In this document: piece by piece, positions 5,987 through 40,855 of the stretch
How the letters are laid out: every line of letters starts with the position of its first letter
Position numbering within the stretch: the first letter of the stretch is position 1
Assembly: GCA_024281675.1 (NCBI GenBank)
Contig: JAMXAG010000004.1
Span: 1-64,000 of the forward strand
From: Nitrosomonas sp.
GTDB taxonomy: Bacteria; Pseudomonadota; Gammaproteobacteria; Burkholderiales; Nitrosomonadaceae
Direction: 5' to 3'
DNA: 64,000 bases
Notes under the pieces: model-generated
Databases searched by the model: none
Told to the model about the DNA's origin: nothing
What the model saw: only the letters and a program-made list of their open reading frames with translations
Made by a program: the position numbers and the translations under genes

Positions 5987-6634
5987 TTACTTACTTTCCA
6001 TTGTCTTAATAAATGCATTCGCTTCATCAATGGATTTTTCCATCGACGCAACCAACGTGGAAACATCTGACCGGATGTTTCCCAACTCACCTTTCAGTGA
6101 TGCAATTGCGCGAGCATTCAGGTTGTGTTTCAAGAACATGACTTGATCTTGGAAAACTTTCAGTACCGGATGGATTTTCGCTTCGGCTTGTTTCATCGAA
6201 GTGATTAACTGGCGGTAATGTGCTTGCGTTGCAACGAGTTTTTGCTGACTGCTTTGCTTGAAACTCTGGTTGCTGTATTGCGTGATTTCTTCTTTCCATT
6301 CGGTAAATAGTGCTTCGGATACACTCTCGATATCGGCGATTCGTGTTCTGACTTCCTCAGCTTTACTGTTGCTTTCTTCGTAGGCATCGTTGAGTCGTTT
6401 GTAAGTATCCTCCAAATCGCCGCCTTTAAAATTGGTCGCAACCGTAAATTGTTCCAATGCGGATTTGAACTGCTCCTTGGTTTCTTCCTGTGTATCGCGG
6501 GCCTTCTCAACGCGATGCACCATCACGTCACGTTTGGGAATACCGATTTTTTCCAGCCCCTCCAAATACATCGTGGAACACGCACTCAACATTAGAAAGA
6601 GAGCAGCCAACAATAAACGATACGAACGATTCAT
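5987..6634 (-). CDS. DUF2959 family lipoprotein
   Basis: The protein of 215 residues starts M-N-R-S-Y-R-L-L-L-A and has a lipobox L-S-A-C at Cys19, so it is exported and lipid-anchored. The rest is helical and highly charged, consistent with a long coiled coil: a KARDTQEETKEQFKSALEQF segment near residue 45 and EALFTEWKEEI in the middle. The ATG at 6634 is preceded by GGAGATAATCTT, a good ribosome site; a longer open frame upstream lacks support. It is the last gene in the run of minus-strand lipid genes, 79 bases after the Tam41-like gene. DUF2959 has no known function; an envelope role is inferred. Confidence 0.85.
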   Translation of the reverse strand: MNRSYRLLLAALFLMLSACSTMYLEGLEKIGIPKRDVMVHRVEKARDTQEETKEQFKSALEQFTVATNFKGGDLEDTYKRLNDAYEESNSKAEEVRTRIADIESVSEALFTEWKEEITQYSNQSFKQSSQQKLVATQAHYRQLITSMKQAEAKIHPVLKVFQDQVMFLKHNLNARAIASLKGELGNIRSDVSTLVASMEKSIDEANAFIKTMESK

Positions 6635-6713: not shown

Positions 6714-7694
6714 TCAGCGCAATACGCCACGGCGCAATAACTGACGCAGCGCGACCAGTCCGAGCAAAATCGGATGGCGGCGTAGCATCGGGGTAACTTC
6801 AATACGCACCCCGGTATGTCGCTCGATTTTCCACACCGCGTACTCAACGCCATTGACGAACGTAAACACCGCTTTTCCTAAACGTAACAGCGATAAAATC
6901 CGCCCTTGCCAGCGGCGCAAACGCCAACGCCAATGCGCTTGCCGTTGCATTACAGGCGTGGTTAGGCAGCGATACCCTCCATCTTGCTGTTGCAGCAATA
7001 ATGACGTAAGCATCGGACTTGCCGCTTGCGTCCAGCGAGTAAACGCTGACAGATTGGTTTGCGCCAAGTGGCGTGCGCGCGTTTCTTGCTCAGCGCGTAG
7101 TTCGGATGCATAGGTCAGCATTAAACAACGTGTCCAGATTTCCTCCACGCTCAATTCTCCGGCCTCAATCGCAGGTACCCCTGATTTTAGAAAAGTCACA
7201 ACCGAATGCGCGATCGCAGTATAAATCCGCTGATGGATCGCGTCATCACGCGCAAACAACAAACGAGAAGGCTGTGCAAAGCGCGCCCAGATATAAGAGT
7301 GAAACCAGAATTGCGCACCGCGCTCAAAATCAGCCGTTGAAATGACGGCATATTTCGCCCGTAAAGTCTTCCCTTGATGTATCACTTCGAGATAAAACAC
7401 ATTCGGCGGCAACCATCCATTGAACAGGGCCAGCAACCTTTGCTGGGGATAAGCTTTACGGTAATCATCGACCAACACATACAAATCGACAATGCCTTCG
7501 TCCAAGCTACAATTGGAATGCAAACACGAACCGTACAACAATACGGCATCCAATGAATCCGCAAAGCGTGCTGTTAAGGCCCTAACAAAAGATTCCAACT
7601 CCAATGGAACCAACAAATTGCTTTGCGCCGCCACTGCATCGATCAATTCAGCCGGTAATCGATCATCTGCTGCTGTTCGGGAATTCGTATCCAT
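6714..7694 (-). CDS. Tam41-like phosphatidate (lipid phosphate) cytidylyltransferase
   Basis: This 326-residue protein has the nucleotidyltransferase signature L-L-Y-G-S-C at residues 52-57 followed by EGIVDLYVLVDD (67-77), the counterpart of the Tam41 YGSGVF...LDFIFAVDD motif. AKYAVIST (113-120) then matches the Tam41 KYGVIST block, and SVVTFLKSG...LTYASELR matches its helical C-terminal part. Tam41 makes CDP-diacylglycerol from phosphatidate and CTP in mitochondria, and scattered bacteria carry homologues. The gene follows the lipid kinase gene by only five bases, so it may activate that kinase's product. Not CdsA-like: no run of membrane segments. Family assignment is by recognition, substrate is inference. 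Confidence 0.75.
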   Translation of the reverse strand: MDTNSRTAADDRLPAELIDAVAAQSNLLVPLELESFVRALTARFADSLDAVLLYGSCLHSNCSLDEGIVDLYVLVDDYRKAYPQQRLLALFNGWLPPNVFYLEVIHQGKTLRAKYAVISTADFERGAQFWFHSYIWARFAQPSRLLFARDDAIHQRIYTAIAHSVVTFLKSGVPAIEAGELSVEEIWTRCLMLTYASELRAEQETRARHLAQTNLSAFTRWTQAASPMLTSLLLQQQDGGYRCLTTPVMQRQAHWRWRLRRWQGRILSLLRLGKAVFTFVNGVEYAVWKIERHTGVRIEVTPMLRRHPILLGLVALRQLLRRGVLR

Positions 7695-7699
7695 GATCG

Positions 7700-8707
7700 C
7701 TATACCACTAAAAACGTGATTGGAGGGGTTGCTGAGATCCGCAAAGGCTCGTTTTGGTTGTTAGAACGATACAATTCACCGTCCACCACATACTCATCCT
7801 TCAAATAAAGCGATAATGTTTGCATATTCCGGCTGAAATAACCGTCCGATTCCTTCAACTTACTCCCCTGCCCCGTCAACAGTGGCCATAGTGAACGCCA
7901 AAGCCTCTTCGGATGTTGCTTGACCCAAGTGACGTGCAAAGGCAATGTTTCTTCACCCCAATAAGGGCGCATATTCAGCAAGATCCGATGCGATGCACTG
8001 ATCAAAGCAAACAAAAAAGTACCTTGATGCGTTCGTTGATCGGATTCGACAAGTGTCATTATCACCGGTGCCCAATCAGCATGATGTCGCCCCAACAAAA
8101 TACCGAACAGTGTTGTCACCACAGAATACAACATAATTAGAAAAGTATAGCTATTCCCGGTAATGCCAACTTGTTTAACCGAGCTCCTTGAAAATTTCAC
8201 CCCACGCGCCACCAGACCCAGCGCAAAAAACATACCGTACAATTTATGGATACCCGTCTGTTCGATACAGAATGCGGCGCGTTGCACCAACTGAGGGGGT
8301 AAAGGTTTAGCCAGATAAGCCTGTAAACGATGTAACACCTGATCGGGCTTGCCTTTAATTCCCAGATCGAAGGACGTCATGTTGGTGGTGCCGCCCGGCA
8401 CGATCATTAAAATGGGCCAGTCATCGCAGGATTTAAAATGTTGGAATAAATGTGCAAAAATTGCATGCGTAGTGCCATCCCCCGCCACGATCACCAACAA
8501 ATCAATTTGCGCTTGAAGCAATTCATCGAGCGCAGCTTTAAAAGACTCCGCATTGGTACCTTCACGAAGTACGATAGCGGGTATTTGCTGCAAAATCTGC
8601 CGAATCTCTAGCAGCCTAGTTCGCGCTTGACCTCCGTTCGGATTCAGCAAACAGCCGATTTTAGCTGAACCCGCTTTCAGACGATCAATCCGTTGTGGCA
8701 GCAGCAT
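7700..8707 (-). CDS. Diacylglycerol-kinase-family lipid kinase
   Basis: The protein of 335 residues carries the DAGK catalytic domain: N-P-N-G-G at 22-26, V-A-G-D-G-T-T at 74-80 and P-G-G-T-T-N-M at 104-110 (the ATP-binding and acceptor regions). The C-terminal half is the second beta-sandwich domain of YegS/DgkB-type kinases. It would phosphorylate a lipid hydroxyl (diacylglycerol, sphingosine or ceramide). The gene lies 29 bases after the CDP-alcohol phosphotransferase and five before the Tam41-like gene. In Caulobacter a kinase of this superfamily phosphorylates ceramide, which makes a ceramide kinase role possible here. Confidence 0.85.
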   Translation of the reverse strand: MLLPQRIDRLKAGSAKIGCLLNPNGGQARTRLLEIRQILQQIPAIVLREGTNAESFKAALDELLQAQIDLLVIVAGDGTTHAIFAHLFQHFKSCDDWPILMIVPGGTTNMTSFDLGIKGKPDQVLHRLQAYLAKPLPPQLVQRAAFCIEQTGIHKLYGMFFALGLVARGVKFSRSSVKQVGITGNSYTFLIMLYSVVTTLFGILLGRHHADWAPVIMTLVESDQRTHQGTFLFALISASHRILLNMRPYWGEETLPLHVTWVKQHPKRLWRSLWPLLTGQGSKLKESDGYFSRNMQTLSLYLKDEYVVDGELYRSNNQNEPLRISATPPITFLVV

Positions 8708-8736
8708 TGTGTGAAATTAATGATACGCTAGGTAGT

Positions 8737-9975
8737 TCAGTGCAATGATTTCGTTGATAAGCTTCTTATGTCCAACGGAGCACGGGTAAATATTTTCACC
8801 GCCCATTGATCGCGGTCACGCGCGGGATCAATATCTTGCAACCAAGATCGCAACGTGCCCTCTTTATGTTTAGTCAGCCAAGCAATCATCAAACGCCAAA
8901 TCAAAACACCCGTTGAAATCAAATGCCACACAACTACCAATGCAAGACCCAAAGCAGGTTGCCCAATCAACCAAGAAAAGGTGAGCAAAAGCAAATTCGG
9001 ATTGCGGCGCGCGGTGATCAAGCGGTTAAATGAATCCAATCTGCGCCAAATAAAGATATCAAATGACGCCAAAGAAAACTGGAAAACCCCCTCACATAAG
9101 CGGCCACCGATGTAACCGACAAACATCAAAAAGATCAGGATTTCAAATCCTGGAATTGCCTCAGCGGTACCAATCAAACCTGCGCCCCAAGCCAAATACC
9201 ACAATGGCGGATGGATAATATCCAAACCATGATCCAGAACATCGCCAAGTCGGCTCGACGTAACCGTCACGCGCGCCAACTTACCATCCACGGTATCAAG
9301 GAACGTCATGAACCACGCCATCAACAAACCAATACCGTAAAAACCACCCCAGAATGCCAACCCAGCGGTAACCGCCAAAACGATGCTCAAATAAGTCACA
9401 TGATTCGGTGACCAGCCTTTACGTACGCAATAATGCGTTACCCAAAATGCGGGCTCTGGCCACAACCACTTGGTAATGAAATCGGTAACGCCTTTATAAG
9501 AACCTGAAAACAGCTCTCGCTCCAACAAAGTCCGATTTATTTCGCTGATCGGCAAAATGTACGGCGGATCCTTTTTCTTCAAATTTTGCTGAAAATCAAT
9601 CTGCAGATCATCTAAGCTAATCCTCGGAATAGTCAACAAAGCAAATTTATAATTGTGATCCTTGTCTTTATCCAAATTCCTTAGCAACTGCTGCGCATAA
9701 TCTCCATCGCTACGTATTGCAGCCGGACATCCATCCACGCTATACAATGCAACCTTCTTGTCTAAACCCAACAATGCATTGAGTACACGCCCATCAAATA
9801 AAAAATTGGCATTGAGAAATAACGTCGCCGCACCGGAAGGTATCTTGTCAACATTGTCTATAAAAGTAACGTTTGTTTGCGCGTTGAACATGCGACGTAA
9901 ACGCTCTTGTCCGGTTAGCCCCCAAATTTTGGGCTCACCGTCACCAAAGAGATAAATATAAGTAGTTGTTGGCAT
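8737..9975 (-). CDS. CDP-alcohol phosphatidyltransferase with extra N-terminal domain
   Basis: The ATG at 9975 gives 412 residues; an in-frame TTG at 10014 would add 13. The full CDP-alcohol motif D-x2-D-G-x2-A-R-x8-G-x3-D-x3-D is present with D227, D230, G231, R235, G244, D248 and D252, within a C-terminal part of about six membrane segments. Residues 1-160 are soluble and begin Y-L-F-G-D-G-E-P-K-I-W-G-L-T-G-Q-E-R-L-R-R, resembling a degenerate sugar-phosphate nucleotidyltransferase like that fused to archaeal di-myo-inositol-phosphate synthases, but without an intact nucleotide loop. It probably transfers a head group onto, or a phospho-alcohol from, a CDP-activated molecule. Head group unknown. 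Confidence 0.85.
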   Translation of the reverse strand: MPTTTYIYLFGDGEPKIWGLTGQERLRRMFNAQTNVTFIDNVDKIPSGAATLFLNANFLFDGRVLNALLGLDKKVALYSVDGCPAAIRSDGDYAQQLLRNLDKDKDHNYKFALLTIPRISLDDLQIDFQQNLKKKDPPYILPISEINRTLLERELFSGSYKGVTDFITKWLWPEPAFWVTHYCVRKGWSPNHVTYLSIVLAVTAGLAFWGGFYGIGLLMAWFMTFLDTVDGKLARVTVTSSRLGDVLDHGLDIIHPPLWYLAWGAGLIGTAEAIPGFEILIFLMFVGYIGGRLCEGVFQFSLASFDIFIWRRLDSFNRLITARRNPNLLLLTFSWLIGQPALGLALVVVWHLISTGVLIWRLMIAWLTKHKEGTLRSWLQDIDPARDRDQWAVKIFTRAPLDIRSLSTKSLH

Positions 9976-10080
9976 ACGATCTAGATTTGATTTACAAATG
10001 AAATGAAAAAACAATCAAAGAATGGTATTCATTGGATAGGAAATATACATACTAACAGAAGCCAATCATTACTTGCCACA

Positions 10081-11142
10081 TCAAAAAACTCTGCGCAACC
10101 ACAGGTTCGCAATCAGGATTATGGCAATACTGGGTGCAAGCGCCACGAATACAGGATTGAGGCTCAATATCAACCCCGCATTGGCAATGATTTGATCCAG
10201 CAAATAAACAGCCACGCCAATCAAGGCGGCAAAAACCAGCTTATTACTTAAACCGGTGCGGATAGAGCCAAAAACAAACGGGATCGACAATAACACCATC
10301 GCTACGGTCATCAATACACTTCCGAGTTTACGCCATAGTGCTAATCGGTAGGAATCAAAATCCTGCCCAGTAGTGCGCAAAAATTCAGTATGCCGTGCAA
10401 GCTCAATAGGTGAAAGACTTTCCGGTGGTTTGGTCAACGTACGAATATCATCAGGTCGCAGAAAAGAGCGCCAATTTAGAGAATTCAAATGTGCCGCCGA
10501 AATTCCATCGTTCGTGAACGTGCGCGTGATGACATCATGTAATTCCCAAACATCGTCATCAATAATTTGTGCAGACTGTGCCAAAATATGCGAAATCAAA
10601 TGACCCTCCGGAGAAAATTGCAAAATCTCAATGCCAACTGCATGTCTTGAATGCAACATTTGGCCGATACGAATAATATTATGTTCATTACGTGTCCAAA
10701 CACCCAAATTTCTCCCTAGTTCAGCACTCAGATTTAACGCCAAGGCACGATAGGTAATCGCCTTTTGCTGTAATTGTGGCGCAACAAATTGTTCCAATGC
10801 AACAACGCTCAATAACAACAGTGCGCCCGCACTCAACGATGCCAGACTAATTCGTTGCGGCGAAAGACCAGCTACACGCATAGCAATGAGTTCCGAATGC
10901 ACCGCCAATCTTCCTAATGCAATGACCGTACCCAATAGGGCGACAAATGGCGCGATCTGAATAAATCTTCGTGGCATCAGCATCGTCGTATATAAAAAAG
11001 CATCTTTAGTACGATACGTGCCTTTACCAACATCATCCAGTTGATCCAATAGATCAAAGAAACCAAATAGCGGCAACAAAATCGCAGTAGCGATCAGAAA
11101 TCCCAATAACACTTGAATGATCACGTAGCGGTAAAGTATCAC
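10081..11142 (-). CDS. LptG-like permease (YjgP/YjgQ family)
   Basis: The GTG at 11142 is chosen: AGGA lies seven bases upstream and the preceding gene stops at 11145, so the two are coupled. The 353-residue protein begins V-I-L-Y-R-Y-V and has three N-terminal membrane segments, a periplasmic domain of about 150 residues, and three C-terminal segments. HSELIAMRVAGLSPQRI is the coupling-helix region that contacts the LptB ATPase. LptFG pairs extract lipopolysaccharide from the inner membrane; this pair sits inside a lipid-synthesis operon and may move a different lipid. Canonical lptFG usually neighbour pepA in this group, so this may be a second set. That needs the rest of the genome. Confidence 0.85.
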   Translation of the reverse strand: MILYRYVIIQVLLGFLIATAILLPLFGFFDLLDQLDDVGKGTYRTKDAFLYTTMLMPRRFIQIAPFVALLGTVIALGRLAVHSELIAMRVAGLSPQRISLASLSAGALLLLSVVALEQFVAPQLQQKAITYRALALNLSAELGRNLGVWTRNEHNIIRIGQMLHSRHAVGIEILQFSPEGHLISHILAQSAQIIDDDVWELHDVITRTFTNDGISAAHLNSLNWRSFLRPDDIRTLTKPPESLSPIELARHTEFLRTTGQDFDSYRLALWRKLGSVLMTVAMVLLSIPFVFGSIRTGLSNKLVFAALIGVAVYLLDQIIANAGLILSLNPVFVALAPSIAIILIANLWLRRVF

Positions 11143-11144
11143 GC

Positions 11145-12218
11145 CTACTTCCTGAACCACTGATGTTTTAAGGAAAATGCATATAAGCTGAGCCCAATCA
11201 ACATCAAGGCATCTAACCACCACATTCCTGGAAAAGCCCCCACCACACCGTTCTCCACCCAGGTTTTTGCTAATCCATTCAAATTATAGTATGCCGCAAA
11301 TAACAGTGCGGCAACTAAATAGGTTCGATCCGTCTTGTCCTGGCGCGGTGAAATACGAATAAACGTCACCGCAAGCAACGCTAATAGAATCGTGGCTAAC
11401 GGCCGGGAAATACGCCATTGAAACTCAGCAATATCGCGCGGCTCCTCCGATTCCCATAACGTTCGCGTAGCTGCAGCTTTGCGACGGTAATTGAGCACAT
11501 AATCGGTATCAATGTAATAGGTCATGTTTTTAAACTCTATCGCGGCATCCACACTGGCATCACTGCTGAGTTTATAAATGACACCATCAGACAGCTGAAT
11601 ATAAGGTTTTTGCTCGGATGATGTCGGTTGCACCTGAAAAGCTTGCTTAGCAATGACGATTTCGCTGTTATGTGGATTCTTCACATAGTGAAAAATGTTC
11701 TGCATTTGCTTGATTGATTCGTTTTTTTCTTGCACATAAATCACCCGACCGGAACGTTCACTACCGTGAAAACGTCCGGCTTGGAAGCGATTAGTATTTA
11801 ATTCCGCTTCCGCCTGCGCATCCAAAATATAGCTTTCTGTGTATGCCCAAGGACGAATATAAGATGACAAAATACCGCTGATAATCCCTATGGGTATAGC
11901 AACGGTCAAAACCACCCATACGATACGAGTCGTACTGATTCCAACTGAACGAAGCACCGTCAACTCGTGGTCTTTATTCAGTCTGCCAAGCCCGATAATG
12001 ACGGAAATATATAAGGCAATTGCAATTAACACTTCCAACGAGATCAGCGTCTTAAGGAATACTAGCTTAAAGAGTGCGACGATACCAAGCGACTCAGTCA
12101 CTGCGCCAGCGAGCAATCTTGCACTGCTGAAGCTGGCAAACAATCCGGCCAGAATCAGTATGACTACCGCAAAAGGTAGCAAAATTTCACGTGCGATATA
12201 ACGGTCAAGCAGCTTCAT
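11145..12218 (-). CDS. LptF-like permease (YjgP/YjgQ family)
   Basis: This protein of 357 residues has the LptF layout: M-K-L-L-D-R-Y-I-A-R-E-I-L at the start, three membrane segments, the coupling region HELTVLRSVGIS, a periplasmic beta-jellyroll domain (about residues 130-260) and three more membrane segments. It would form a heterodimer with the next gene and, with an LptB-type ATPase encoded elsewhere, pull a lipid out of the inner membrane. It is 45 bases downstream of the nucleotidyltransferase gene and two bases from the LptG-like start. See the LptG entry for the paralogue question. Confidence 0.87.
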   Translation of the reverse strand: MKLLDRYIAREILLPFAVVILILAGLFASFSSARLLAGAVTESLGIVALFKLVFLKTLISLEVLIAIALYISVIIGLGRLNKDHELTVLRSVGISTTRIVWVVLTVAIPIGIISGILSSYIRPWAYTESYILDAQAEAELNTNRFQAGRFHGSERSGRVIYVQEKNESIKQMQNIFHYVKNPHNSEIVIAKQAFQVQPTSSEQKPYIQLSDGVIYKLSSDASVDAAIEFKNMTYYIDTDYVLNYRRKAAATRTLWESEEPRDIAEFQWRISRPLATILLALLAVTFIRISPRQDKTDRTYLVAALLFAAYYNLNGLAKTWVENGVVGAFPGMWWLDALMLIGLSLYAFSLKHQWFRK

Positions 12219-12263
12219 GCATTAACGATTCCGGCTTATTCCTGCACTAAAAGTATTCGTTTT

Positions 12264-13070
12264 TTAATTTTTTAATAGCGATTCCACCAATTGAAGGTCG
12301 GCTACTTTGTCTACATCAATTCCCGCACAAGGATTATCCAGTTCAATCGCTCGTATCGTAACACCCGATTTTTCTGACACTGCAGCCAAACCCTGCTGCA
12401 ATGTCAATGTACCGAATAGATAGGCAACCACCGTTCTAAAACCGAGTACCCGAGCAATTAATTTCCATGGTTTTTTGCGTAGATCTTCAGCTTGGCGCCA
12501 GAAATTCACGAGCGCGCGCCCCTGAGGTGTAAAGGTAAACAAATTGCAACCACAAAATCCTCCATCGTGTAATCGTATCACTGTCCGTTTGGCATCGGGA
12601 AAAACTGCAGCAATGCGCTCTTGTTTCACGATACCGACAGTAGCATCACCGGCAATTACACTCGATCGCTGCAGAAATTGCTGCACAATAGCCGGCGTTA
12701 ACAAAGCATGATCCGCAGTGGTGATTAATACAGAAACATCTGCCGGTATTTGCTGCAATGCACTATTCGCGCTGCGGCTGGGTGAATCCAAATTAGGAAT
12801 CCATGTCACCTGCCCAGAATCAATTCGCCTTTGCAATTCAGGACAATGACTATGAAGTGTTTCCGGAGGACCGCACAAAATAATCGAAGTAATTTGCTGA
12901 CACGCTTGTAGCGCATCCAGTACGCGAATAACCATAGGGATACCACCCACCTCTGCAAAAGCTTTACACGCAGCACCTGTAAATTGCGTAATCGGATCTT
13001 TTCCAGTGCGATCTGCGGCTAATACTATGGCAGCAAACCGCTTGTCGGTATTGTGATTCTCTGTACTCAC
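12264..13070 (-). CDS. MobA-like NTP transferase family protein
   Basis: The protein of 268 residues has the nucleotidyltransferase-fold start AAIVLAADRTGKDP (residues 13-26; the G-G of the classic loop is altered), then K-A-F-A-E-V-G-G-I-P-M-V-I-R-V-L near 36-51 and T-T-A-D-H-A-L-L-T, the metal-binding Asp region. Such enzymes load a nucleotide on a phosphosugar or phospho-alcohol. Its ATG overlaps the stop of the GNAT gene (ATGA), so they are translationally coupled. Combined with the CDP-alcohol phosphotransferase downstream, it could make the nucleotide-activated head group. It is unlikely to be MobA proper, being in no molybdenum context. Confidence 0.72.
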   Translation of the reverse strand: MSTENHNTDKRFAAIVLAADRTGKDPITQFTGAACKAFAEVGGIPMVIRVLDALQACQQITSIILCGPPETLHSHCPELQRRIDSGQVTWIPNLDSPSRSANSALQQIPADVSVLITTADHALLTPAIVQQFLQRSSVIAGDATVGIVKQERIAAVFPDAKRTVIRLHDGGFCGCNLFTFTPQGRALVNFWRQAEDLRKKPWKLIARVLGFRTVVAYLFGTLTLQQGLAAVSEKSGVTIRAIELDNPCAGIDVDKVADLQLVESLLKN

Positions 13071-14218
13071 AAGGTTTTTTGATAAATGCGATAGCGCTTA
13101 TATTCTTTACTGCCAATACTCTTAAGAATATGCCGCATGGGTAAGTTATCTTCCAATATCCAAGATAACTCGACTTCGTCAATCCCGCGAGCAAGCCCCG
13201 CCTGACGTGGCGCATCGATAATCAAACATGCCAATGCCAAGCCTAAAGGTGTATTTTGGAATTCCTTGCGCACACCCATTAACGGAATACGACCGCTACG
13301 GATTTCATTATTTTTGATCCGTTTAATAAGTTTCATCCAGCCAAATGGAAACAAATTACCGTTCAGTTCTGGCAATATTTCGTTCAAGTTAGGTAAGCCC
13401 ACCATAAAAGCTGCTGGCACACCCTCCACTTCAGCAATTTGAACAAATTCATCGGGTAATAACCACTTTAAAGTATTGCCAAGCTCGACAAATTCTTCTT
13501 CTGTAAAAGGTATAAATCCCCAGTTTTCACACCAAGCATCATTGAAAATATCTCTGAGAATTTCCATTTCCTCAGTCAATCTATTGCGCTGTAAAGTACG
13601 TAGTTTAATTTTTGATGAAAATCGATGTATGACCGCCTTCATCACGGGTGGAAATTCGAAATCGACATTAATTTTATACGCCAGCATATCCTTTGCTGGA
13701 ACGTATCCTTGTCCTTCCAACAATCGTCCATACCAAGGTGCCGAATGCGTCATCATAATCATAGGAGGCGTATCAAACCCATCCACCAGGATGCCAACCT
13801 CTTGATTGATAGAAAAATTAAATGGTCCAGTAACATGCCGAATACCGCGCGCGGCTAACCAAGCTTCTGCATGTAACATCAACGATGCAAAAACTTGCAC
13901 ATCATCAATACATTCCATAAAACCAAAATGTCCGGCATCAAAACCATAACGTTCGCGATGAAGTTTGTCTATCTGTGCACTAATACGCCCAACCGGTTGC
14001 CCGTCTCGATAGGCAACCCAAAGTTGCCAATCACCATGCTTGGAATAAGGATTGAAATGTGATAAATGAAAGCGTCGCTCAAGCCGGAGTGGCGGGACCC
14101 ACATGGGATCATCCGCATAGATATGCCAAGGCACGTTTATAAACTTACCCACATCATGGTAGGTCATTGCAGGACGAACCACCACTGGCGAATTGCCAGC
14201 TGCCAATTGTTTAACCAT
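13067..14218 (-). CDS. GNAT-superfamily N-acyltransferase (bacterial ceramide synthase-like candidate)
   Basis: This 383-residue protein belongs to the large GNAT family whose members start with a F-I-N-V-P-W-H-I-Y-A-D-D-P-M-W-V-P-P-L block and then V-G-R-I-S-A-Q-I-D. Further landmarks are H-F-G-F-M-E-C-I-D-D, a GPFNFSINQEVGILVDGFD block and Y-V-P-A-K-D-M-L-A-Y. The Caulobacter bacterial ceramide synthase (bCerS), which N-acylates a sphingoid precursor, is as I recall a protein of this family, so a lipid N-acyltransferase is a plausible role; other members have unknown substrates. It is first of the coupled genes and overlaps the next by four bases. Confidence 0.7.
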   Translation of the reverse strand: MVKQLAAGNSPVVVRPAMTYHDVGKFINVPWHIYADDPMWVPPLRLERRFHLSHFNPYSKHGDWQLWVAYRDGQPVGRISAQIDKLHRERYGFDAGHFGFMECIDDVQVFASLMLHAEAWLAARGIRHVTGPFNFSINQEVGILVDGFDTPPMIMMTHSAPWYGRLLEGQGYVPAKDMLAYKINVDFEFPPVMKAVIHRFSSKIKLRTLQRNRLTEEMEILRDIFNDAWCENWGFIPFTEEEFVELGNTLKWLLPDEFVQIAEVEGVPAAFMVGLPNLNEILPELNGNLFPFGWMKLIKRIKNNEIRSGRIPLMGVRKEFQNTPLGLALACLIIDAPRQAGLARGIDEVELSWILEDNLPMRHILKSIGSKEYKRYRIYQKTL

Positions 14219-14268
14219 TGCGATGAAAAAGAATCAAAGCGAATCGTGAATGTTTCAAACTAACCCAA

Positions 14269-14745
14269 TCATATATGGGTATGTTTGAGCAGGTTATCCA
14301 CCAGTTTATGAAAAACTTCTTTGGGATCTTCCGCATGCACCTCTTGCTGATCGTCGGTCATTACTTTGGGTGTATAAGCATTGGCTTCGCATTGCTCATC
14401 GGTAATATTGCGGCAAAAATCCCGAAAATTATTCCAGTCGGTATTGTACTGAAGCAAATGATCCTGACGAATAAATAATCGCAACACTTCAAAATTATGC
14501 TGTAGCTCGGGCATACGTGCGGCGAAAAATTCCTGAATGTTCTTAGGCCAAACCTTATGCTTCGGATATAAAGCCGCAAACTCTGTTTCAATCGTATCGC
14601 GAAAATTTTCAATTGCATAGGAACGCCGCTTGCGATTAATAATTTCTATAAAAACCCCTCCTATGATCGCAAAAGTAAATAAAGCGATCGCCCAAAACGG
14701 CACCATTTCGACATATTCGGTTATCTGACTGAGATTCTCGTTCAA
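14269..14745 (-). CDS. Single-pass membrane protein of unknown function
   Basis: I do not recognise this 158-residue protein. It has one strong membrane segment at about residues 15-33, followed by a basic stretch (N-R-K-R-R) and a soluble, mixed-charge domain rich in aromatic residues, so the bulk should face the cytoplasm. It is 50 bases upstream of the GNAT gene on the same strand and may be the first gene of the lipid operon. The ATG at 14745 is the only good start, though no strong ribosome site precedes it. Confidence 0.65.
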   Translation of the reverse strand: MNENLSQITEYVEMVPFWAIALFTFAIIGGVFIEIINRKRRSYAIENFRDTIETEFAALYPKHKVWPKNIQEFFAARMPELQHNFEVLRLFIRQDHLLQYNTDWNNFRDFCRNITDEQCEANAYTPKVMTDDQQEVHAEDPKEVFHKLVDNLLKHTHI

Positions 14746-38313: not shown

Positions 38314-40836
38314 CTAGATCACCACGATATTCGCATTGGTCATGTTCAAACCCGTGCCAACCGTAGTAATTTGTACAGCACCACCACCACCATTACCATC
38401 GGCATCGTATAGCAATGCACCGGTAGCTTTATTGTAGATAATGAAATCATTCGCATCTAATGCTTTCGCGCCTAACTTAAATTGGCTAGCCGCCAGCATA
38501 CCTGTTGCTGTTAATGACTTAAACACAGCATTTTCTAATTGAATGCTGTCATTCGCTACGTTAAAGTCAGTAATTGTATCAACGTGGCCTTTGGTCGTGA
38601 ATTTAAAAATATCTTTACCTGTTCCACCCGTTAATTTATCGACACCAAGACCTCCATCAAGCGTGTCGTTCCCAGAACCTCCATTTAATTGATTGGCAGC
38701 GCCATTTCCAGTGATGATATTATTCTGGCTATTACCGGTACCATTAATCGCAGCTACACCGGTCAGGATAAGATTTTCCACATTAGTGGACAATGTGTAA
38801 GTGACGTTACTGCTGACAATGTCCGTTCCTTCGTTGAGTTTCTCGATAACAACATCCTTCGCATTTTCAACAAAATAAGTATCATTACCCAACCCGCCGA
38901 TCATGGTATCCGCACCAGACCATCCCCTTAGGGTGTCATTACCAGCTTTTCCATCCAAAACATTATTGAGTGTATTGCCTGTTAGTCTGTCATTGAATGC
39001 GCTACCCGTCAGGTTTTCAATACTGATCAGCGTATCCAAACCGGCACCGACTGTATTCTGCTGCGTGTTAACCAGCAAGGAAACTGTAACCGACTTGGTA
39101 GCAGCAGCGTAGGTAGCGGTATCGTTATTGGAGGGCGTGCCCGTTAACGTATTATTCCCCGCGGTACTCACCAGGAGGAGGCCATTGTTAACAAAGAATT
39201 GTATATCGCCAGAACCATTACCCACGAAAGTATCCAGATCGCCATCGCCATCGATATCCCCCAGAGCCGGCTGAGCCCTGTATCCTACATCGACGAAACC
39301 CAAAGCATTCTCGGCAGGAGCAAATTTTGGATTATGCAGGGTGCCTATATTCCTTTGAAATACCGTATTGCCGTTCCAATTGCCTTGGAAAGCATCTAAA
39401 TCACCATCGTTGTCAATATCTACAAAGGAAGTTGCTCCATTACGAATGAGATTTAAGCCATAGACACTAGCATCACTGCTGTTAAAGCTTGGCTCGTTGG
39501 CTGTTCCGGTATTTTCATAAAATTTCGTAATGAAAAACGATTTATAACTATATCCAACAAATATATCAAAATCGCCATCACCTTCTAGATCCACCAACGT
39601 GATATTGTTACTATACGGTGGAAAACCTAAGTCAAAAGGATCATGCTCACCGATGAAAACTGGATTACTAGCCGTTCCCGTATTTTCATAAAAGGAGTCA
39701 CTTATAAAAGCATCCGAATCCCCATCGTTGTCGATATCCGCAAAAGCAGGATTAGCTCCATAACTTCCTCCATTATTCAAACCAAAAGGATCTACTTCGG
39801 GAGAGGCAAAGATCGGATTGCTGACAGTTCCCGTATTTCTAAAAAATAGCGCACCCACAAAAGCATCTCGATCACCATCGCCATCGATATCGACAAAAGC
39901 GGGGCTAGTAGCCAAGATACCTACATTGCTCAAACCAAAAGGATTGGTAGAAGGAGCCGCAAAGATTGGATTATTGGCAGCCCCCGTATTCTTAAAAAAC
40001 TTCACATCACCCGATCCGCTACCTATAAAAGCATCCTGATCGCCATCGTTGTCAATATCGACAAATGTGGGTTCAGCGTCGTTGCCCACGTCAATCAAGC
40101 CCAGTGAATTGAAACTCGTAACAGCAAATTTTGGGTCACTTTTTGTTCCAATATTTCTTTGAAACACAGTGTTACCATACCCTTCCCCTAGGAGAACGTC
40201 CAAGTCTCCATCGCTATCGACATCAGCGAAAGTGGGACTGGCATATTCACCCAATCCAATCAAGCCGAACGGATTGGGGTTAGCAGCGGCAAACTTTGGG
40301 TTACTGACAGTTCCTGTATTTCGAAAAAACAGCGTGCTACCACCAAAATATCCATTGCCAATAAAAGCATCCAGATCACCATCGTCATCAATATCGGCAA
40401 AAGTGGGATTGGCTCCAAAATCAACATTACTCAAGCCAAAAGGATTCGTGATAGCCGGAGCGAACTTGGGGTTATTGACTGTTCCTGTGTTTCTAAAAAA
40501 TAGTGTGTCGCCACCAAGGCTATCATACAATCCATAAATACCTCCATTGCCCACAAAAGCATCTAAATCCCCATCGCCATCGATATCTACAAAAGTGGGG
40601 CTGGCCAAGGCACCTACATCGCTCAAACCAAAAGGATTAGTAGAGGGAGCTGCAAAAATTGGGCTATTGACTGTTCCTGTATTTCTGAAAAACGCTGTAT
40701 TGCCATCACCCTTTCCAACAAAAACATCCAAGTCTCTATCGCCATCAATATCAATCAATGTCGGACTGGCAAATGAGCCCACATCCCTCAAACCAAATGG
40801 GTTAGTGGTAGTTAAGGTAAAAATAGGGTCTGACAT
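38314..40836 (-). CDS. FG-GAP/VCBS-repeat protein with C-terminal RTX motifs (type I secreted)
   Basis: A protein of 840 residues. About ten tandem repeats of 45-60 residues fill residues 1-560, each with a D-x-D-x-D-G-D-x-D calcium loop (F-V-D-I-D-G-D-G-D-L-D-A-F) and an R-N-T-G-T segment, the pattern of FG-GAP/VCBS beta-propeller repeats. Residues 600-750 carry RTX nonapeptides (G-G-x-G-x-D-x-L) such as L-D-G-K-A-G-N-D-T-L. No signal peptide, as expected for a type I substrate; the transporter is not in the window. The ATG at 40836 has GGAG seven bases upstream. It follows the TIGR03032-like gene by 19 bases. Likely extracellular Ca2+-dependent adhesin or enzyme scaffold. Confidence 0.85.
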   Translation of the reverse strand: MSDPIFTLTTTNPFGLRDVGSFASPTLIDIDGDRDLDVFVGKGDGNTAFFRNTGTVNSPIFAAPSTNPFGLSDVGALASPTFVDIDGDGDLDAFVGNGGIYGLYDSLGGDTLFFRNTGTVNNPKFAPAITNPFGLSNVDFGANPTFADIDDDGDLDAFIGNGYFGGSTLFFRNTGTVSNPKFAAANPNPFGLIGLGEYASPTFADVDSDGDLDVLLGEGYGNTVFQRNIGTKSDPKFAVTSFNSLGLIDVGNDAEPTFVDIDNDGDQDAFIGSGSGDVKFFKNTGAANNPIFAAPSTNPFGLSNVGILATSPAFVDIDGDGDRDAFVGALFFRNTGTVSNPIFASPEVDPFGLNNGGSYGANPAFADIDNDGDSDAFISDSFYENTGTASNPVFIGEHDPFDLGFPPYSNNITLVDLEGDGDFDIFVGYSYKSFFITKFYENTGTANEPSFNSSDASVYGLNLIRNGATSFVDIDNDGDLDAFQGNWNGNTVFQRNIGTLHNPKFAPAENALGFVDVGYRAQPALGDIDGDGDLDTFVGNGSGDIQFFVNNGLLLVSTAGNNTLTGTPSNNDTATYAAATKSVTVSLLVNTQQNTVGAGLDTLISIENLTGSAFNDRLTGNTLNNVLDGKAGNDTLRGWSGADTMIGGLGNDTYFVENAKDVVIEKLNEGTDIVSSNVTYTLSTNVENLILTGVAAINGTGNSQNNIITGNGAANQLNGGSGNDTLDGGLGVDKLTGGTGKDIFKFTTKGHVDTITDFNVANDSIQLENAVFKSLTATGMLAASQFKLGAKALDANDFIIYNKATGALLYDADGNGGGGAVQITTVGTGLNMTNANIVVI

Positions 40837-40855
40837 AATCATTCTCCAAGAAACA

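Follow-up and report, generated by a model that had tools for sequence, protein, structure and literature searches.

A Nitrosomonas operon for a candidate phosphosphingolipid that carries the genome's only LptF/LptG pair, in a family lacking LpxC

The window analysed here is a stretch of 64,000 nucleotides (positions 1 to 64,000 of contig JAMXAG010000004.1, assembly GCA_024281675.1) from Nitrosomonas sp., a probably ammonia-oxidising bacterium whose genome assembly comprises 2.81 Mb in 29 contigs and is 100 % complete. Eight open reading frames (ORFs) at 6714-14745, all on the minus strand and all open at their coordinates, form an operon for a ceramide synthase-like N-acyltransferase of the GNAT type, a nucleoside triphosphate (NTP) transferase, the permeases LptF and LptG, a cytidine diphosphate (CDP)-alcohol phosphotransferase, a lipid kinase and a Tam41-like nucleotidyltransferase, preceded by a small ORF (Table 1). 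The small ORF is separated from the GNAT gene by 50 bases, the GNAT and NTP transferase genes overlap by 4, and 45 bases lie between the latter and lptF. With the GTG at 11142 as the lptG start, lptF and lptG overlap by 4 bases, giving the operon two four-base overlaps; from the listed ORF start at 11223 the overlap is 79 bases. Gaps of 66, 29 and 5 bases follow, between lptG and the CDP-alcohol phosphotransferase gene, between that gene and the kinase gene, and between the kinase gene and the last gene. An earlier sequence-only reading had described a compact minus-strand operon; its genes, coordinates, four-base overlap and five-base gap were recovered, and its two-base gap was not found.

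Table 1 Features of the operon and its downstream neighbour in the window
Feature	Coordinates	Strand	Basis
cerS-like N-acyltransferase (bacterial ceramide synthase; CC_1154 / YghO type)	13067..14218	-	C. vibrioides and plasmid YghO matches
NTP transferase, CC_1153 ortholog by place and sequence, not CpgD	12264..13070	-	PF12804 (NTP_transf_3)
LptF-type permease, sphingolipid-cluster clade	11145..12218	-	TIGR04407, tree
LptG-type permease, sphingolipid-cluster clade, likely GTG start	10081..11142	-	TIGR04408, tree, possible starts
CDP-alcohol phosphotransferase, CpgA (CC_1159) type, N-terminal nucleotidyltransferase-like domain	8737..9975 (listed ORF start 10014)	-	PF01066
Lipid kinase, CpgB (CC_1160) type ceramide kinase	7700..8707	-	PF00781 (DAGK_cat)
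Tam41-like nucleotidyltransferase, CpgC (CC_1161) type, proposed CTP:ceramide-1-phosphate cytidylyltransferase	6714..7694	-	C. vibrioides match, predicted fold
Small protein upstream of cerS, one predicted membrane stretch (by eye)	14269..14745	-	Pfam RAMP4 under cut-off only
DUF2959 putative lipoprotein downstream, operon membership uncertain	5987..6634	-	PF11172, start codon choice

The gene types named in the sequence-only reading agreed with the family scans (NTP_transf_3, LptF, LptG, CDP-OH_P_transf and DAGK_cat). LptF scored 310.3 bits on TIGR04407 (cut-off 230) and LptG 317.3 bits on TIGR04408 (cut-off 240), and the GNAT protein and the last protein had no Pfam or NCBIfam match at E 1e-3.

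The operon was compared with the locus for ceramide phosphoglycerate (CPG) and its form with a second phosphoglycerate (CPG2) in Caulobacter vibrioides DSM 9893 (L132, from a scan of 50 loci, mostly Caulobacter and Phenylobacterium), in which CC and CCNA numbers were assigned by gene order and a constant offset in the papers and CpgD was anchored by the protein ends encoded in primers printed in PMC12275187. The order at this locus is aasR-cerR-acpR-spt, next the minus-strand genes of the CpgC, CpgB and CpgA types, then lptF2-lptG2-cerS-NTP transferase, and finally CpgD, which is again minus-strand; its LptF and LptG are described as second versions (PMC11324152) and CpgB as a ceramide kinase (PMC10331486). 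The comparison of the GNAT protein with the Caulobacter ceramide synthase, proposed in the sequence-only reading, gave 43 % over 377 residues to the protein in the cerS position between lptG2 and the NTP transferase; matches to plasmid proteins annotated as YghO reached 48-49 %. The CpgA type (37 %, E 2e-73), CpgB type (27 %, E 8e-22), CpgC type (33 %, E 9e-33), the NTP transferase (33 % to the gene adjoining cerS) and LptG (26 %) also matched the reference locus, and LptF had no match there at 1e-3. With CerS, CC_1153, LptF/G, CpgA, CpgB and CpgC thus matched to the CPG/CPG2 locus, the earlier suggestion of a ceramide-phosphate lipid holds. Identity of the window NTP transferase with CpgD was ruled out, the true CpgD having been located in C. 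vibrioides by the primer-encoded ends. A glycerolipid or inositol lipid was also set aside, as the orthology of the cluster is more specific; the CDP-alcohol phosphotransferase scores far below the cut-offs of inositol-type models and resembles phosphatidylinositol phosphate synthases in fold.

The search of the genome for serine palmitoyltransferase (SPT) and CerR, likewise suggested earlier, found an SPT and a CerR-like reductase outside the window. On contig C1, aasR (606 aa), cerR (303 aa), acpR (85 aa) and spt (395 aa) are contiguous (L060 5762-9973), and the SPT scored 572.5 bits on NF047599 (cut-off 500). On contig C12, a gene at 121120-121821 (G000:C12:121120-121821) encodes a protein with 45 % identity to Caulobacter CpgD, and is followed by genes for a HIT protein, a fatty-acid desaturase-family protein and a 2,3-bisphosphoglycerate-dependent phosphoglycerate mutase at gaps of 3, 30 and 11 bases (L207 9121-12158). 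The HIT protein has 53 % identity to one encoded between the CpgA type and lptF2 in the reference locus. In all five long loci read (L207 and L208-L211, from two genera), cpgD has a gpmA match no more than about 4 kb away, the run being looser and devoid of a desaturase match in L210 and L211. D-2-phosphoglycerate is reported as the preferred substrate of CpgD, and the same authors suggest that an enzyme may be dedicated to supplying it (PMC12275187).

The host therefore carries aasR, cerR, acpR, spt and cerS, the CpgB, CpgC and CpgA types, and both CC_1153 and CpgD, which are needed for CPG2; these, like the cluster LptFG pair, have counterparts in the Caulobacter CPG/CPG2 locus (CC_1152-CC_1165). 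The host differs from Caulobacter in having the genes in three places, in an LptFG pair from another cluster clade, and in the loss of LpxC, which Caulobacter keeps. N. eutropha has been described with the same gene set in three genome regions (PMC11324152, PMC9386255). Orthologs of the locus in that species are listed and CPG and CPG2 predicted in PMC11324152, contrary to the earlier statement that no lipid had been described for this gene set in ammonia oxidisers; the CC_1158 phosphoesterase, the CC_1166 flippase and the CC_1168 LptC2 are reported there as missing from N. eutropha.

Conservation was followed in the genome group of the host (f1, 125 genomes, 99 of them of good quality, i.e. 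at least 90 % complete and at most 5 % contaminated), referred to here as the family. The gene cerS stands beside lptFG in 18 of 18 pair-bearing loci from 18 other family genomes (BLAST, E 1e-5), which were picked from listed high-scoring places and so are no random sample, one of them (L042) ending at a contig end. These loci hold the NTP transferase in 16 cases, the CDP-alcohol phosphotransferase in 15, the kinase in 17 (two fused) and the last gene in 16; a match to the small upstream ORF lies near cerS in 10 of the 18, and a DUF2959 match adjoins the last gene, also in 10. The gene set is not together by chance, and the neighbourhood conservation asked about in the sequence-only reading extends across the family loci. 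In a nineteenth stretch (L054, genome G095) an LptF-like gene stands alone and cerS is absent; this second LptF-like gene is about 3 kb from a CpgA-type gene and about 0.7 Mb from the main operon of that genome, in which the family locus search did not find a CpgA-type gene.

Genes for lipid A synthesis were sought in the family through LpxC and LpxB only. No LpxC was found in the host or in any of the 125 family genomes, and the controls (E. coli, Caulobacter, Synechococcus and Bacteroides) were positive. No LpxB exceeded the cut-off in the 125 genomes, in which there were two weak partial matches. In a phylum-wide sample the order is represented by 31 genomes that do not belong to the family, and all of these carry LpxC. 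SPT is present at E<=1e-100 in 120/125 family genomes and in 98 of the 99 good-quality ones. Of nine lipid A genes, only lpxK has been reported in N. europaea and only lpxA in N. multiformis, which was ascribed to genome reduction (Opiyo et al. 2010, PMC3087551).

The Lpt bridge is retained. LptF/G matches (PF03739) occur in 121 of the 125 family genomes (two matches in 111, three in eight, four in one and one in one; none in four), and the only two in the host genome are the window genes. Host lptC, lptA and lptB, all over the cut-offs of their equivalog models, are consecutive genes ahead of an rpoN-like gene, and inspection by eye showed neither kdsC nor kdsD just upstream; host LptD (PF04453, 330.8 bits) is followed by genes that by eye resemble surA, pdxA and ksgA. 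The N-terminal domain of LptA and LptD (PF03968) was found in 19 of 19 family genomes tried, and a long-frame LptD-like match in 10 of these, the model being weak for LptD.

The origin of the permease pair was examined in a tree of concatenated LptF and LptG (42 rows, 755 columns, LG+C20), which included eight of 20 family pairs and left out the alphaproteobacterial rows L140, L151, L107 and L101 and the single permeases L054 and L128. A pair was classed as of the lipopolysaccharide (LPS) type if its genome has LpxC and no cerS linked to the pair, an assignment that is based on assays for E. coli only. The eight family pairs and three gammaproteobacterial cerS-linked pairs (two from Pseudomonas plasmids and one from G237) formed one clade with support of 100/100, ten LPS-type pairs of the same order a separate clade (100/98), and E. 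coli with two other gammaproteobacterial pairs a third (95/88). Uniting the family with the LPS-type pairs of its own order cost 89.8 log units and was rejected by the approximately unbiased (AU) test (p 1.1e-7), as was union with the E. coli group (95.8 log units, p 6.8e-6). The G237 row is long and the second pair of that genome (L125) longer; with both removed the clade kept its 100/100 support and the same-order union was again rejected (p 4e-13). Because of this tree and these AU tests, the family's sole LptFG pair is classed with the sphingolipid-cluster pairs, and its LPS-type pair is taken to have been lost. A single origin of all cluster-borne LptFG pairs was disfavoured (39.3 log units, AU p 0.001), and the alpha and the beta/gamma clusters therefore probably recruited their pairs separately.

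Among 398 Pseudomonadota genomes, CerS was found in 43 (profile A1, E<=1e-20) and LpxC in 361. Genomes with CerS alone, with both, with neither and with LpxC alone numbered 27, 16, 10 and 345 (Fisher p 1e-22, uncorrected for descent), 14 of the 27 having been scored by absence from the full list of 361 LpxC matches. In the 338 good-quality genomes the same classes numbered 27, 16, 2 and 293 (Fisher p 2e-26, likewise uncorrected), i.e. 27 of 29 genomes that lack LpxC carry CerS. Fourteen of the 43 CerS-bearing genomes, chosen by hand, were examined for LptFG: seven of eight LpxC-less genomes outside the family have exactly one pair, less than 14 kb from cerS, and five of six with both CerS and LpxC have at least two pairs.

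Similar clusters occur on plasmids. Sphingolipid clusters with LptFG-type genes of their own were seen on plasmids of Pseudomonas sp. BYT-5 (pBYT5-2, L212), Diaphorobacter (the conjugative pDCB2, L214) and P. veronii (L216). The conjugative pBYT5-2 has the order cerS, NTP transferase, lptF, lptG, kinase and cpgC type, with an LptFG pair in the family's clade, and differs from the window in that its CDP-alcohol phosphotransferase and cpgD-like genes stand apart; window proteins match it at 49 % (CerS), 43 % (NTP transferase), 34 % (LptF), 39 % (LptG), 44 % (CDP-alcohol phosphotransferase), 31 % (kinase) and 42 % (CpgC type). Its permeases, inside a sphingolipid cluster, also pass the NCBIfam LPS-export cut-offs, and these cut-offs therefore do not discriminate between the two kinds of pair. 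The P. veronii plasmid shares a cerS-lptF-lptG-kinase cluster, again with LptFG in the clade of the family, and differs in having no cpgC-type, NTP-transferase or CDP-alcohol phosphotransferase match within the stretch examined. Genes of this cluster (L216 12004-19784) are annotated yghO, yghR, yghS and yghT, which are names of an E. coli locus. That locus, too, may be one for sphingolipids, since CerS belongs to the YghO family.

From gene presence, order and conservation, the absence of LpxC and of LpxB over the cut-off, and the phylogenetic place of LptFG, we infer the following reactions, head group and transport route. AasR, AcpR, SPT and CerR from contig C1 would make the sphingoid base, which the window CerS would acylate to ceramide, and the CpgB-type kinase would convert ceramide to ceramide-1-phosphate. 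The Tam41-like CpgC-type protein would use cytidine triphosphate (CTP) to form CDP-ceramide as the source for CPG. CpgD would turn 2-phosphoglycerate, which the product of the nearby phosphoglycerate mutase gene may supply, into CDP-glycerate, and the CpgA-type phosphotransferase with the CC_1153-type protein would add the second phosphoglycerate. The LptF/LptG pair would then extract the lipid, which would reach the outer leaflet by way of LptB, C, A and D.

An AlphaFold model of the CpgC-type window protein (mean predicted local distance difference test score, pLDDT, 83; 13 sequences) had Tam41 CDP-diacylglycerol synthases as its five best Protein Data Bank (PDB) matches (E 1e-8 to 3e-7, template modelling (TM) score about 0.5), ahead of aminoglycoside nucleotidyltransferases. 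The best Foldseek match was moderate (E 1.3e-8, probability 1.00, TM score 0.49/0.57, 14 % identity, root-mean-square deviation 10.6, with 6-7 for the next four), and a sequence profile against the PDB placed Tam41 first, but weakly (E 0.41). The predicted fold thus backs the Tam41-type cytidylyltransferase named in the sequence-only reading. In two relatives the kinase and CpgC-type domains form a single protein (L048 12882-14966, 694 aa; L051 3408-5507, 699 aa), a fusion that fits consecutive steps, and together with the Tam41-like fold this points to CDP-ceramide as the product of the CpgC type. The conclusions of PMC11324152 propose from an InterPro domain that CC_1161 may activate ceramide-1-phosphate; the accessible text of PMC12275187 and PMC13228409 gives no mechanism for CpgC, and a literature search for CDP-ceramide or CpgC returned nothing on the subject among the matches listed. 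The model of the CDP-alcohol phosphotransferase (pLDDT 72) matched AF2299, phosphatidylinositol phosphate synthases and an IPCT-DIPPS fusion, and cpgD scored 56.8 of 580 bits, far under the cut-off, on the cytidylyltransferase half of the IPCT-DIPPS model. It is plausible that CpgD and the CDP-alcohol phosphotransferase are a pair that makes and uses CDP-glycerate.

On this evidence the operon likely makes and exports an anionic phosphosphingolipid of the ceramide-phosphoglycerate type that replaced LPS in the family; lipid A has probably been lost, with service of the anionic sphingolipid by the Lpt bridge as the best reading. It is considerably less likely, though still a reading to be reckoned with, that the same LptFG exporter carries a related but different lipid, such as CPG bearing a single phosphoglycerate or a ceramide whose head group is different. 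In favour of this, searches of some family members yielded no CpgD or no CC_1153-type gene, and CC_1158 is reported missing from N. eutropha (PMC11324152); against it, the host genome has both cpgD and the CC_1153-type gene. Continued synthesis of an LPS-like glycolipid without LpxC, carried by the Lpt bridge with the sphingolipid as a minor component, would accord with the retained bridge and with the stray lpxK and lpxA genes (PMC3087551); we judge it improbable, as the sole permease pair is in the sphingolipid operon and belongs to the sphingolipid-cluster clade. Least probable by far is an ordinary housekeeping LptF/LptG pair that exports LPS and stands among lipid genes by chance. It is the only pair in the genome and passes the LPS-export cut-offs, but so does the plasmid pair from a sphingolipid cluster, LpxC and above-threshold LpxB are missing from all family genomes, and the tree places the pair with cerS-linked ones; the tree and AU tests reject this explanation. 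The sequence-only reading had proposed that the lack of a second canonical lptFG would mark the window genes as housekeeping. There is indeed no second pair, but that rule fails here, with LpxC missing and the pair in the sphingolipid-cluster clade.

Several observations weigh against replacement of LPS by a ceramide-phosphoglycerate lipid. The reported lpxK and lpxA genes of N. europaea and N. multiformis belong to steps outside the LpxC and LpxB searches, and proteomic work on three ammonia oxidisers treats LPS synthesis as present (PMC5960693). Of the 19 family genomes tried, only 15 had a CpgD match at E<=1e-50, the match being absent or weak in four, and two of the 18 loci have no CC_1153-type gene in the operon, so CPG2 may not be universal and the head group may differ among family members. 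The 27 CerS-bearing genomes without LpxC are clumped in eight families, with 18 in one. The linkage is not absolute either: G489, of the same order, has CerS, LpxC and a single LPS-type LptFG pair on another contig, and G262 is without both LpxC and LptFG. LptG and LptF positions chosen as lipid A contacts did not split the groups cleanly. The complete genome of G262 (L103) has CerS and SPT-like genes and no LpxC, LptFG or PF03968 match, and possibly represents a sphingolipid without an Lpt bridge.

A broader proposal, to which we give somewhat better than even chances, is that the whole ammonia-oxidiser family swapped LPS for a phosphoglycerate sphingolipid, discarding lipid A synthesis and the LPS-type pair, retargeting the complete Lpt bridge through a cluster-borne, plasmid-related LptFG pair and drawing the head group from the 2-phosphoglycerate of the neighbouring mutase. 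If true, the head group in these autotrophs would be one step from the 3-phosphoglycerate of carbon fixation. A Sphingomonas-type envelope is comparable in naturally lacking lipid A and containing sphingolipids (PMC10964400); it belongs to another lineage and its published lipids are glycosphingolipids, whereas a phosphoglycerate head group is predicted for the host.

The CPG locus itself was already known, as were its orthologs in N. eutropha and the missing lipid A genes of N. europaea. The family-wide absence of LpxC, with LpxB under the cut-off, the occurrence of SPT with a single cerS-linked LptFG pair, and the clade of that pair are new here. The main text of PMC11324152 and PMC9386255, as far as consulted, does not tie Nitrosomonas to lipid A loss, a single LptFG pair, LptFG phylogeny or a gpmA neighbour. 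No paper joining the sphingolipid locus with the lack of lipid A was found in the searchable literature, in which subscription papers and bioRxiv are largely uncovered, so that absence from print is not shown. The findings touch on two open questions, namely how outer membranes manage without lipid A and how sphingolipids get to the outer membrane, a route described as not known in PMC11324152. The family would be an experiment of nature: with just one permease pair and a single anionic lipid pathway left, transport could be tested without an LPS background. The missing lipid A genes of N. europaea, which PMC3087551 explains by genome reduction, would be recast as replacement. The proposed envelope may also bear on the resistance of nitrifiers to detergents, metals and polymyxin-like agents, and the Lpt tree indicates that annotations as LPS export permease can mark sphingolipid exporters.

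Elsewhere in the window, the protein encoded at 3174-4553 matches the Rh50 ammonium transporter structures 3b9w/3bhs (E 1e-183), entries from N. europaea, which points to a Nitrosomonas as the probable host. Two long proteins, encoded at 38314-40842 of the window and at L207 3110-6019, are alike by eye in having repeated DIDGDGD-type motifs and glycine-rich C-terminal repeats.

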